Origin: Halarcobacter mediterraneus | Lineage (GTDB): Bacteria; Campylobacterota; Campylobacteria; Campylobacterales; Arcobacteraceae | Length of the DNA stretch: 64,000 nt | Assembly (NCBI RefSeq): GCF_004116625.1 | Contig: NZ_NXIE01000001.1 | Span: forward strand, 496,001 to 560,000 | Direction: 5' to 3' | Part shown: positions 51,426 through 54,412 of the stretch, piece after piece | Position numbering within the stretch: the stretch's first letter is position 1 | How the letters are laid out: the number at the start of each line of letters is the position of its first letter | Position numbers and translations under genes: made by a program | The notes under the pieces: model-generated | Told to the model about the DNA's origin: nothing | Databases searched by the model: none | What the model saw: the letters and a program-made list of their open reading frames with translations, nothing else

Positions 51426-52766
51426 GTGAAGATTAATAAATTCTCAAGAATTGGATTTATACTCGCTGCTGCTGGTTCAGCTGTTGGTTTAGGTAATGTA
51501 TGGAAATTTCCATATGTTACAGGAGAATATGGTGGTGGAGCTTTTGTTTTAATTTATTTATTAGCTATTTTATTTATTGGACTTACAGTATTTATTGCTG
51601 AAACAATTATTGGACAAAATGGACAAGCTGATGTTTCATCTTCTTTCATAAATTTATCAAAAACAAAAAATGAAAACTGGAAATTTGCTGGCTTTATGAT
51701 TATTACTGCTTTAATAATCCTTTCTTTTTATTCTGTAGTATTAGGATGGATTTTAAACTATATTATTACTTCATTTTCTTCTCTTCCAACTGAAGCAAAA
51801 ATTGCAGGAGCTAATTTTGAAAAATTAATATCAAATGATATTTTTTTATTAGTTATATATCATACGATAATAGCTGGTTCTGTAATTTTCATTGTAATAA
51901 AAGGAATAAAAGAAGGAATAGAAAAAGTTAATTTTATTTTAATGCCATTATTAGCTCTCATATTAATTGGTTTATTAATATACTCATTTAGTCTTGATTC
52001 TTTTTCTAAAGCTATTTCTTTTATGTTTACACCTGATTTTAGTAAAATTGATGGGAATGCTCTACTTGCAGCTTTAGGACAAGCTTTTTTCACCCTTTCT
52101 TTAGGAGTAGGTACAATTTTAACTTATTCTGCTTCACTTCCAAAAGAAACAAATTTCTTTAAATCTTCAATATATGTAGCTATTTTGGATACTGCAATTG
52201 CACTTATAGCTGGGTTAATTATTTTTTCTTTCCTTTTTGAAGCAGGAGCTCCTAGTACAGCTGGACCAGGACTTGTTTTCATTTCATTACCTGTAATATT
52301 TTCTGCTTGGGGAGTATGGGGACAAGTTATTGCTATTTCATTTTTTATAGCTTTGATTTTTGCAGGAATAACGTCAGCAGTTTCAATGATAGAACCATCA
52401 TTAAGATTCTTTATTGAGAGATTTAAAATGACAAGAATAAAAGCAACAATTCTTTGTGGTAGTATTTTTTATATTCTTGGAATTATTGCCCTACTTTCTA
52501 TGAGCAAAACTTTTGGTACAGAACTTACTTTTTTTGATAAAAGTGTATTTGACTTAATGGACTTTATGACTTCCACTATTATGATGCCTATTGCTGCTAT
52601 TCTAACTTGTATTTTTCTAGGTTTCTTTGTAGATAAAGAATTTTTAAAAGGAAAGTTTATAAAACATACTAATATATTTGTATTTAACTCTTGGTATTTT
52701 TTAGTAAGATTTATAGTACCTATTGCAATTACAATATTACTACTAAATAAACTTGGAGTAATCTAA
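51426..52766 (+). CDS. Sodium-dependent transporter (NSS/SNF family)
   Basis: A 446-residue neurotransmitter:sodium symporter-family protein, about 11 helices, with the N-terminal substrate and sodium site 'FILAAAGSAVGLGNVWKFPY' and 'SLGVGTILTYSASLPKE' in helix 6-7. Bacterial relatives (LeuT, Tyt1) import amino acids with Na+. The substrate is not predictable. Start is GTG at 51426 after CAAAGGA; a TATAAT at 51398-51403 could be the -10. A strong stem-loop follows the stop. Confidence 0.9.
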   Translation: MKINKFSRIGFILAAAGSAVGLGNVWKFPYVTGEYGGGAFVLIYLLAILFIGLTVFIAETIIGQNGQADVSSSFINLSKTKNENWKFAGFMIITALIILSFYSVVLGWILNYIITSFSSLPTEAKIAGANFEKLISNDIFLLVIYHTIIAGSVIFIVIKGIKEGIEKVNFILMPLLALILIGLLIYSFSLDSFSKAISFMFTPDFSKIDGNALLAALGQAFFTLSLGVGTILTYSASLPKETNFFKSSIYVAILDTAIALIAGLIIFSFLFEAGAPSTAGPGLVFISLPVIFSAWGVWGQVIAISFFIALIFAGITSAVSMIEPSLRFFIERFKMTRIKATILCGSIFYILGIIALLSMSKTFGTELTFFDKSVFDLMDFMTSTIMMPIAAILTCIFLGFFVDKEFLKGKFIKHTNIFVFNSWYFLVRFIVPIAITILLLNKLGVI

Positions 52767-52791
52767 TAGTTTAGGATAATCCTAAACTATT
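52765..52791. terminator. Bidirectional terminator between the sodium symporter and helicase genes
   Basis: Twelve-bp perfect stem AATAGTTTAGGA (52765-52776) / TCCTAAACTATT (52780-52791) with a 3-nt loop, spanning both convergent gene ends. Confidence 0.75.
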
Positions 52792-54074
52792 TACTTTCTT
52801 CTAAAACTTCTATTAGAGTCTCTTTTAGTAGTTTTTTTAGATTTTGCCCCTGTTTTTTTAGGTTCACTTGAAGAAGTTTTTCTTCCTTTTTTTTCACTAA
52901 GCTTTTTCTTTGTTTGGATTCTTTGTCTTGGTTGTCTATCTTTTAAAGGAAAATCTTCATGTATTTCTCTTTTGATATTTAGTCTTAAGTTTCTTTCTAT
53001 TTTTGTAAAATGATTATAATCTTCAACTGTTAAAATTGTAATTACTTCACCCCTATTACCTGCCCTACCTGTTCTTCCCACTCTATGAGTAAAGTCATCA
53101 GTTGATTCAGGTAAATTATAATTAATTACTAAAGGAAGTTTTTCAATATCTAATCCTCTTCCTGCAATATCAGTTGCAATTAATACTTGAATCTTTCTAT
53201 TTCTAAAATCTTTTATTGCTTGAACTCTTTGTTTATATTCTATTTCTCCGTGAATTGTTGCTGCTTTAACTCCATGGGTATTAAAATGTTCTAAAGCAGC
53301 ATCAGCACTCTCTTTTTTATTTACAAATAAAAGTATTTGATTATAAGCTGAATCTTTAATAAGCTTAGTAACTAATTCTTTTTTCTTTTTTATATCAATT
53401 TTATATGCTTTATGATCAATTAGACTAACAGTATCTCTTCTATCATGAATTTGTACAGTTACGGGCTCTTTCATAAATTGTTTAGCTAATTTTTGTATAT
53501 TTTGAGAAATAGTTGCAGAACACATTACAATCTGTTTATAAGGAGAGCAGTAAGAAAAAATTTCTTCAACTTCTTCTAAGAATCCCATTTCTAGCATAGT
53601 ATCTGCTTCATCTAAAACAAGGTAATTTACACTACTTAAATCTAATATTTCACTTTCAACTAAATCTTTTAATCTTCCAGGAGTAGCAACAATAATATCA
53701 ATTCCACCTTCTATTATTTGCTCTTGTTTTGATTTGCTTATTCCTCCCATGATTTTTGTATGTTTTACTTTTAAAAACTTTCCATAATCATTTAAAGATT
53801 TAGAAACTTGTTCTACAAGTTCCCTTGTAGGAACTAAAATCAATCCTCTTAAAACTCTATTATTATAATTTAATTTTGAGTTTACTTTATTTAATAAAGG
53901 CAATACATACGCAGCTGTTTTACCTGTACCAGATTTTGAAGCGGCAATTACATCTATATTCTTATTAATAAGCGGTATTACTTTTTTTTGAACCTTAGTA
54001 GGAATTGTGTAAGCTTTCTCTTCAATAGCCGCATTTATTGACTTATGAAAATTAAATTCTAAAAACTTTTCTAT
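52791..54074 (-). CDS. DEAD-box RNA helicase with apparent non-AUG start
   Basis: The frame encodes a complete ~427-residue DEAD-box helicase: 'FNFHKSINAAIEEKAYTIP' with Q motif ('PTKVQ'), Walker A 'AASKSGTGKTAAYVLPLL', 'PTRELV', 'TPGR', 'VLDEADTML', 'CSATI', 'ATDIAGRGLD', 'HRVGRTGRAG', and a basic C-terminal tail. Upstream of the Walker A there is no ATG, GTG or TTG in frame before the stop at 54078-54080; the only candidates are ATT (54077-54075) or ATA (54074-54072), the latter six bases after AAAAGGA. The first canonical start (TTG 53903) would remove motifs Q and I. So initiation is at a non-AUG codon, or the start was mutated. Confidence 0.85.
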   Translation of the reverse strand: MEKFLEFNFHKSINAAIEEKAYTIPTKVQKKVIPLINKNIDVIAASKSGTGKTAAYVLPLLNKVNSKLNYNNRVLRGLILVPTRELVEQVSKSLNDYGKFLKVKHTKIMGGISKSKQEQIIEGGIDIIVATPGRLKDLVESEILDLSSVNYLVLDEADTMLEMGFLEEVEEIFSYCSPYKQIVMCSATISQNIQKLAKQFMKEPVTVQIHDRRDTVSLIDHKAYKIDIKKKKELVTKLIKDSAYNQILLFVNKKESADAALEHFNTHGVKAATIHGEIEYKQRVQAIKDFRNRKIQVLIATDIAGRGLDIEKLPLVINYNLPESTDDFTHRVGRTGRAGNRGEVITILTVEDYNHFTKIERNLRLNIKREIHEDFPLKDRQPRQRIQTKKKLSEKKGRKTSSSEPKKTGAKSKKTTKRDSNRSFRRK

Positions 54075-54085
54075 AATTTATCCTT

Positions 54086-54412
54086 TTAATAAACATTTGC
54101 TAATTCATCATCTAAATATGAATCAATTTTTTCAACTAAAGTTTCATAGGAAATCTTACCTTTTTTGTTAAAAAGTACCATTTCTTCACCAAACTCATCT
54201 TTAATATAATGATTTTCATCACTTTTTATTTTATTATATAACTCTTTTATATCTTCAGCTGAATCAATTGCATTATATAAAAACCAATTTGCAGTTGTAT
54301 TTTCATATCTAATTAAACCATAAGTTTGTGCTTCATCAATATAATCTTGAATTGTTCCATTTTCAAACTTTGCACCAACTACTATATCATATTCATTTAA
54401 TACCATTTCCAT
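54086..54412 (-). CDS. Small acidic protein, unknown function
   Basis: A 108-residue, acidic, soluble protein with no cysteines, signal or membrane segment. The pattern 'MEMVLNEYDIVVGAKFENGTIQDYIDEAQTYGLIRY' is split by a predicted beta-helix mix but no family is recognised. It lies 11 bp upstream of the DEAD-box helicase frame in the same direction and probably shares its mRNA; ribosomes ending here could help start the helicase, whose own start codon is unusual. ATG 54412 has weak ribosome-site support. Confidence 0.65.
   Translation of the reverse strand: MEMVLNEYDIVVGAKFENGTIQDYIDEAQTYGLIRYENTTANWFLYNAIDSAEDIKELYNKIKSDENHYIKDEFGEEMVLFNKKGKISYETLVEKIDSYLDDELANVY

Follow-up and report, generated by a model that had tools for sequence, protein, structure and literature searches.

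Introduction

Genes that start with a codon other than ATG, GTG or TTG are a kind already known in bacteria, infC, pcnB, ccpN, cvfC1 and sigR being the described examples closest to the one reported here. In Staphylococcus aureus, according to the available sections of PMC13009471, the AUU and AUA starts of ccpN, cvfC1 and citZ give an output of about 10% of that of AUG in poor medium, and the start of ccpN gives up to 30% of it in rich medium. In Streptomyces, the portion of PMC5472188 at hand describes a GTC start in sigR that is repressed by initiation factor 3 (IF3), and of 34 species 32 have GTC and 2 have GTT as the sigR start. In vitro, IF3 disfavours the weaker third-base pairs, and expression is extremely low, as stated in the accessible part of PMC10158994. 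For Escherichia coli, the excerpt of PMC9410913 credits only two genes with an AUU start, and pcnB is described as limited by its inefficient AUU start (Binns and Masters 2002, as cited in the available text of PMC13009471 and PMC9410913).

The window studied here is a 64-kb stretch of DNA from Halarcobacter mediterraneus, and it contains a DEAD-box RNA helicase gene that appears to begin with AUA. Throughout this paper, ATH stands for ATA, ATC or ATT, and AUH for the RNA form of the same, whereas canonical start codons are ATG, GTG and TTG. The literature matches listed, whose coverage lacks most subscription journals, contained no description of AUH starts for this group; in the main text of a Campylobacter jejuni ribosome-profiling paper, as far as that text was available (PMC11955535), the strings 'auu' and 'aua' are absent.

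Results

The helicase frame and its start region

On the minus strand of the window, the helicase frame is open for 428 codons (52791-54077), with no ATG, GTG or TTG before the TTG at 53903. Read along that strand, the start region consists of AAGGA (54085-54081), TAA (54080-54078), ATT (54077-54075) and ATA (54074-54072), after which come GAA AAG TTT TTA. An earlier note on this DNA had described just such an arrangement, and its coordinates proved to be correct: back to the stop at 54078-54080 the frame offers only ATT and ATA, the ribosome-binding site that it placed six bases before ATA is indeed found exactly 6 nt away, and motifs Q and I are located upstream of TTG 53903 (Q codon at 53990, GTGKT at 53930-53916). 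Its expectation that gene finders would truncate the protein and lose the Walker A motif also holds, as this first canonical codon is past the motif. In the window, three of the 56 stop-to-stop frames of at least 150 codons are without a canonical start in their first 30 codons; the two besides the helicase sit antisense to longer frames. All features are collected in Table 1.

Table 1 Features of the helicase locus (window positions) and of the other genes of the same genome with proposed AUH starts (locus positions)
Feature	Position	Strand	Basis or remark
DEAD-box RNA helicase CDS from the proposed AUA start, 427 aa + stop	52791..54074	-	Open frame, Pfam, present in 81/104 genomes
Predicted ATA start codon	54072..54074	-	Same column ATC 36, ATA 26, ATT 19 in 81 orthologues
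Shine-Dalgarno AAGGA, 6 nt before ATA	54081..54085	-	AAGGA at 5-7 nt in 81/81; background 0.11% at 6 nt
In-frame TAA closing the frame on the upstream side	54078..54080	-	Sequence
ATT before the start, not taken as start	54075..54077	-	3 nt from AAGGA; ATH in 26/81
Q-motif glutamine, upstream of the first canonical start here	53988..53990	-	Identical in 81/81
Walker A / motif I GTGKT	53916..53930	-	Both G and K identical in 81/81; two T positions T or S
TTG, first in-frame canonical start; its use would delete Q motif and Walker A	53901..53903	-	
108-aa ORF, no Pfam or NCBIfam match	54086..54412	-	Ends directly before AAGGA; not needed for ATH
Inverted repeat, terminator-like, between helicase end and convergent transporter gene	52765..52791	.	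Sequence
FtsK gene	L271:13385-15652	+	ATH start
TatD nuclease gene	L270:11768-12571	+	ATH start
Histidine kinase gene	L354:9410-11266	+	ATH start
Aat-like transferase gene	L362:8851-9561	-	ATH start
DbpA-type helicase gene (L005)	G000:C4:157591-158676		PF03880 present; lies outside the 864-kb sample

The encoded protein is a member of the DEAD-box family, with Pfam matches to PF00270 (DEAD, 1.9e-44) and PF00271 (Helicase_C, 6.6e-33), and with the Q motif, GTGKT, VLDEAD, SAT and HRVGRTGR all present in its translation. It resembles the RhlE-type helicases in that its best NCBIfam profiles were RhlE1 (344.3 bits) and RhlE (342.6 bits), but these scores are far below the curated equivalog cut-offs of 750 and 743, respectively. 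In a wider tree that included 20 of the 81 orthologues described below, these 20 formed one separate clade (100/100), sister to the RhlE-like helicases. PF03880, the domain of the DbpA type, was not among the domains that Pfam recognised in the window helicase. In the same genome, the close DEAD-box genes besides this one (L002-L004) start with ATG.

Conservation of the proposed AUH start among orthologues

Of the 104 family genomes searched, 81 yielded one orthologue each at E ≤ 1e-100, and the other 23 yielded none. The 81 orthologues span 15 genera, and the start was read in every one of them after alignment and tabulation of the codons. The start column contained ATC in 36, ATA in 26 and ATT in 19, and no ATG, GTG or TTG at all; on a quick tree of all 81, at least 14 changes among the three ATH codons were required. 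AAGGA was located upstream of the ATH in each orthologue, the distance being 6 nt for 74 of them, 5 nt for four and 7 nt for three, while in 864 kb of the window's genome, read on both strands, it was found exactly 6 nt upstream of 183 of 167403 ATH triplets (0.11%). The window helicase, in other words, has at Shine-Dalgarno spacing a codon that is accompanied by no usable canonical start, and this non-canonical start is kept across species (81/81). Since this column is ATH in all orthologues, whereas the codon preceding it is ATH in merely 26 of 81 and is only 3 nt away from AAGGA, it is the ATA and not the ATT at which ribosomes would be predicted to start; the earlier note had left the choice between the two.

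In many orthologues the upstream in-frame stop is close to the start, and in the window it directly precedes the ATT-ATA pair. In 44 of the 81, no canonical codon exists between this stop and Walker A, and in 36 there is one before Walker A, but it is without a Shine-Dalgarno sequence of four matches. The one orthologue left (L078) has a TTG 17 codons into the frame with AAGG at a short distance, and is the sole case with a Shine-Dalgarno of at least four matches. When the region between the upstream stop and start+15 was considered, 24 orthologues were seen to have some canonical codon, which was an ATG 6 codons in for 19 of them and an ATG 9 codons in for one; in the remaining four (L040, L041, L042 and L082), it was located 6-16 codons upstream of the ATH. 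None of these 24 codons had a Shine-Dalgarno of four or more matches.

Selection on the N-terminal region

The residues of the Q motif and Walker A that lie before the TTG (Q30, G50, G52 and K53) are identical in 81/81 orthologues. In comparisons with eight relatives, pN/pS was 0.20-0.33 for residues 3-58, i.e., those ahead of TTG 53903, while residues 59-360 gave 0.13-0.30; because the ratio is low in both, both parts of the helicase are constrained. For seven of the eight relatives, it was higher in the first of these two parts than in the second. By these ratios, the N-terminus of the helicase is under purifying selection, which in seven of the eight comparisons is somewhat less than that on the rest of the protein. 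It is to be noted that a higher pN/pS is usual for an N-terminus, yet it provides no extra support for the AUH start.

Base composition and strength of the start signals

Fourfold sites in these helicase genes contain 3.7% G and 2.5% C. As G is this infrequent, the lack of G at the third base of the start codon is not significant by itself (15 draws without G, P 0.57), and its use as proof of selection was dropped. ATC is another matter, as it makes up 44% of the starts (36/81) against 10.5% of the internal Ile codons, a figure that carries no correction for kinship; the excess is not the product of one event, since at least 10 changes between ATC and the rest are needed on the tree. The Shine-Dalgarno sequences had a median strength of -4.7 kcal/mol, compared to -4.4 kcal/mol in 53 control frames, which is hardly above ordinary genes; an extended Shine-Dalgarno as compensation for the poor codon was thus not found. 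No stable RNA structure was found over the start of the window helicase (z 0.22).

Promoter and neighbouring genes

The hexamer TATAAT was present within 60 nt upstream of the start in 51 of the 81 orthologues, mostly 35-44 nt before it; 200 shuffles gave 15.5 on average and 27 at most. The position of this hexamer suggests that many orthologues have their own promoter, with leaders of roughly 20-30 nt. For the window helicase gene itself, promoter-like matches numbered 10, with 10.6 in the shuffles, and thus no excess was seen. At the other end of the gene, the inverted repeat at 52765-52791 is near-perfect, and is likely a terminator common to the convergent helicase and transporter genes.

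A relative of the 108-aa ORF was found beside the helicase in 22 loci. It is directly upstream in all 15 loci of the window's genus, where it ends, as aligned, 12-24 nt before the ATH, and also in L026; it is farther away on the upstream side in L027, L040 and L041, and on the downstream side in L029, L032 and, in fragment form, L060. In 44 of the 81 loci, the flank was about 400 nt or less, which limited the detection of this ORF, and hence its absence means little in these loci. The 108-aa protein swaps its side of the helicase between genera, and is a possible functional partner.

infC and the initiator tRNA

The gene for IF3, infC, was found in 60/60 genomes, and in the 30 loci that were read (L146-L175) an in-frame TTG was located at the expected start in every one; an AUU start in infC was not found in these 30 loci across the order. 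The earlier note had invoked the AUU start of infC itself, which stands as a precedent elsewhere but seems not to apply to this order, with TTG in 30/30 loci read of 60. Thus, IF3 seems not to be AUU-started in this order, and the classical IF3 loop on infC is absent in the same form. Three tRNAs with a CAU anticodon were present in the 864-kb sample, two of which have an anticodon stem of the GGG/CCC type, as read by eye. An odd initiator tRNA was therefore rejected as a candidate, given that a CAU tRNA of initiator type and usual stem form is present.

Other genes with proposed AUH starts

The screen for similar genes was performed on the window plus 40 stretches of 20 kb, which together cover 864 kb, or about 30%, of the 2.83-Mb genome, and from which 763 non-overlapping frames of at least 100 codons (410 + 353) were taken. 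In 34 of these, more than 25 codons pass after the stop before a canonical one is reached, and in seven of the 34 a Shine-Dalgarno precedes an ATH codon by 5-7 nt. L273 and L365, two of these seven, were discarded as ordinary, having an ATG directly after the ATH, and five of 763 remained: the helicase, TatD (L270), FtsK (L271), a histidine kinase (L354) and an Aat-like transferase (L362). Scaled up, this number suggests about 16 AUH-start genes per genome, probably a lower bound, because genes with a chance canonical codon nearby escape the screen. Two further frames deserve mention. One (L361:17852-18721, plus strand) is of 289 codons, has no canonical start in its first 53 codons but possible ATT starts, and has no Pfam match. 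The other (L284:2213-3919, plus strand) is ABC-transporter-like and is preceded by an in-frame stretch that begins with ATG and runs into a TAG about 14 codons later, giving it the appearance of an interrupted gene.

The starts of these genes were then compared among relatives. For TatD, read in 30 of the 37 genomes with a match, ATH, mostly ATA, was found in 22/30 loci, all 22 inside the family. In the eight loci that belong to other families, the column of the family's ATH holds ATG, GTG or TTG (8/8); scored overall, five of these eight are canonical and three have both kinds of codon. For FtsK, read in 30 of 35, ATT, ATA or ATC after AAGG(A) was seen in 26/30 loci, five of which (L340, L341, L343, L346 and L347) belong to other families of the order; the remainder comprised two canonical starts (L342 being inside the family), one locus with both kinds and one without 5' cover. 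Counted as ATH here is L337, which has a further TTG 11 codons upstream, beyond the scan, and counted as both kinds is L344, which in one search gave no match with the N-terminal part. The histidine kinase has ATH in 13/13 loci, these being the ones read as orthologues out of 30 returned. The 17 loci of the Aat-like gene were divided into 12 with ATH, three with ATG, one with both kinds and one without 5' cover; in L408 and L409, ATG occupies the codon that is ATH elsewhere.

A sixth gene is that of the DbpA-type helicase, which is present in 94 of the 104 family genomes; 89 loci were read, including L089-L116 and L208-L267, and five of the 94 were left out. Its start is ATH in 43, canonical in 38 and ambiguous in 8, AUH and canonical starts having replaced each other at least 10 times. 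The Shine-Dalgarno was stronger in the ATH genes (P 0.0005, uncorrected), but independent pairs gave no support to such a difference, and the idea of a trade-off between start codon and Shine-Dalgarno in DbpA was abandoned. Taken together, these alignments point to AUH starts being common to at least six genes of the clade, namely those of the helicase, FtsK, TatD, the DbpA-type helicase, the histidine kinase and the Aat-like protein. As a control, RhlE-like helicases were read in 30 loci of another family, in which 44 of 61 genomes had a match, and a canonical start was obtained in 28/30 loci by the same reading; the method is therefore not the source of the ATH starts. In L119 and L179, two RhlE-like loci of that family, ATT is the earliest plausible start, and no canonical codon comes until 47 and 113 codons after the stop, respectively.

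Discussion

The AUA of the helicase is very probably a selected AUH start of low efficiency that keeps synthesis low across the family. In the mechanism that we propose, the ordinary initiator tRNA would be placed at AUA 54074 by AAGGA at the usual spacing, and the third base of AUH would mismatch the CAU anticodon, making initiation inefficient; the conservation described above suggests that this weak start is kept by selection family-wide. By analogy with the known genes, low synthesis is the probable benefit of the AUH start, in that the cell would make a small amount of a potent RNA-remodelling enzyme. Since IF3 rejects AUH codons, synthesis would probably also follow the stringency of initiation, i.e., the amount of IF3 per 30S subunit, as extrapolated from other genes, although for the helicase start itself we lean only slightly towards such IF3 dependence. 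An ordinary Shine-Dalgarno, an AUH codon, in many cases a probable short leader, and no structure together make the start codon the plain control point. The same device probably serves at least five further genes of the clade, those for FtsK, TatD, the DbpA-type helicase, the histidine kinase and the Aat-like protein.

Several other explanations have to be weighed against this one. The earlier note had offered, besides a deliberate non-AUG start, a lone G-to-A change or a sequencing error that turned ATG into ATA and left the helicase disabled in this genome only, and ATA is indeed one base from ATG, in a frame that has no other early start. Both the mutation and the error are refuted by the 81 orthologues, as alignment of the start region with relatives, the check proposed in that note, showed ATG at the start column in 0/81, with ATA, ATC or ATT there in all and with several of these in one-contig genomes that agree; moreover, ATC and ATT cannot be one common error, and the protein is still under purifying selection. 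Practically no chance is left to this explanation, and the deliberate start gains the support of an ATH fixed in every orthologue found. Translation could, on the other hand, begin downstream at the canonical TTG 53903, the codon that gene finders restricted to ATG, GTG and TTG would pick, which would yield a product without the Q motif and Walker A. The invariance of Q30, G50, G52 and K53 and the low pN/pS upstream of that TTG lead us to reject this, and it is also opposed by the AAGGA directed at ATH in 81/81 and by first canonical codons that are up to 160 codons into the frame in the orthologues, so that we regard a downstream start as extremely improbable.

Coupling to the 108-aa ORF, or re-initiation from it, would make the start codon hardly matter, and re-initiation may tolerate poor start codons; the end of this ORF shortly before the ATH in 15/15 loci of the window's genus fits such a scheme. 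The ATH is nonetheless still there where the ORF is downstream, farther upstream or undetected, and therefore coupling is at most a local addition; the excess of TATAAT likewise suggests that many orthologues have a promoter of their own with a short leader. As the driver of initiation, coupling is highly improbable. It could also be that AUH initiation is efficient in these bacteria and the codon neutral, without any regulation, which agrees with the recurrence of AUH in six or more genes of the clade, with a third base that varies among A, C and T, and with the non-significant no-G test. Against such neutrality are the rarity of AUH genes (5/763 ORFs) and their retention gene by gene in relatives, the greater frequency of ATC at the start than among internal Ile codons, and the presence of a CAU initiator-type tRNA of usual stem form, and we consider it improbable. 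More elaborate is the idea that AUH on ribosome-assembly helicases senses immature 30S subunits, a failure of assembly lowering stringency and thereby raising the helicase. AUH is common to the RhlE-like and the DbpA-type (PF03880) helicases, which we take to be types linked to ribosome assembly, and, with leaders that are probably short, control in many orthologues would fall mainly to the Shine-Dalgarno and the start codon. But ftsK, tatD, the histidine kinase and the Aat-like gene have AUH and are not assembly factors, and DbpA is canonical in 38/89; a sensor of this sort is unlikely, though it retains some appeal in that two AUH helicases belong to types linked to assembly. The occurrence of AUH starts on several unrelated enzymes favours a general 'low gear' over a circuit specific to the helicase, and this agrees with the selected, inefficient AUH start that we prefer.

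An extension of this selected-start reading, which we put forward only speculatively, is that the six named genes, and probably ten or more besides, constitute an 'AUH regulon' in the order, a fixed set of genes of low copy whose synthesis is tied jointly to initiation stringency. If so, a drop in the IF3 available to each 30S, or an excess of 30S subunits that are still immature, would raise all the genes together, and the ribosome-assembly helicases would close a feedback loop. In practical terms, annotation pipelines limited to ATG, GTG and TTG would shorten the window helicase by 57 codons, with loss of its ATPase motif, and could take at least 40 codons off TatD and FtsK, here and in other genomes. 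The gene set, DbpA with its switching at least 10 times included, offers a ready comparative test of the purpose of weak start codons.

What appears new here, as judged by alignment, is the helicase gene itself, with three interchangeable AUH codons fixed across a family, as well as AUH in at least six genes, one of which (ftsK) reaches other families of the order, where infC has UUG. The nearest relatives among known systems differ in various ways. The infC gene, with AUU, AUA or AUC, is alike in having an AUH start within a clade and in being discriminated against by IF3, as described in the available parts of PMC5472188 and PMC13009471; it differs from the helicase in product and in its start in this order (TTG in 30/30 loci read), and, because the helicase is not an initiation factor, a direct autoregulatory loop is absent. 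The poly(A) polymerase gene pcnB is, according to the excerpts cited above, likewise one for an RNA-metabolism enzyme with an AUU start in E. coli, but the protein is unrelated, and here three AUH codons interchange family-wide and at least five more genes are involved. The AUU of cvfC1 and AUA of ccpN in S. aureus are also conserved non-canonical starts, and in the sections of PMC13009471 at hand they are accompanied by an extended Shine-Dalgarno, whereas the AAGGA of the helicase is of ordinary strength. Finally, sigR of Streptomyces shares with the helicase a conserved non-canonical start, as reported in the portion of PMC5472188 available, but its GTC or GTT belongs to a sigma factor, while the helicase start has AT at its first two bases in 81/81 orthologues.
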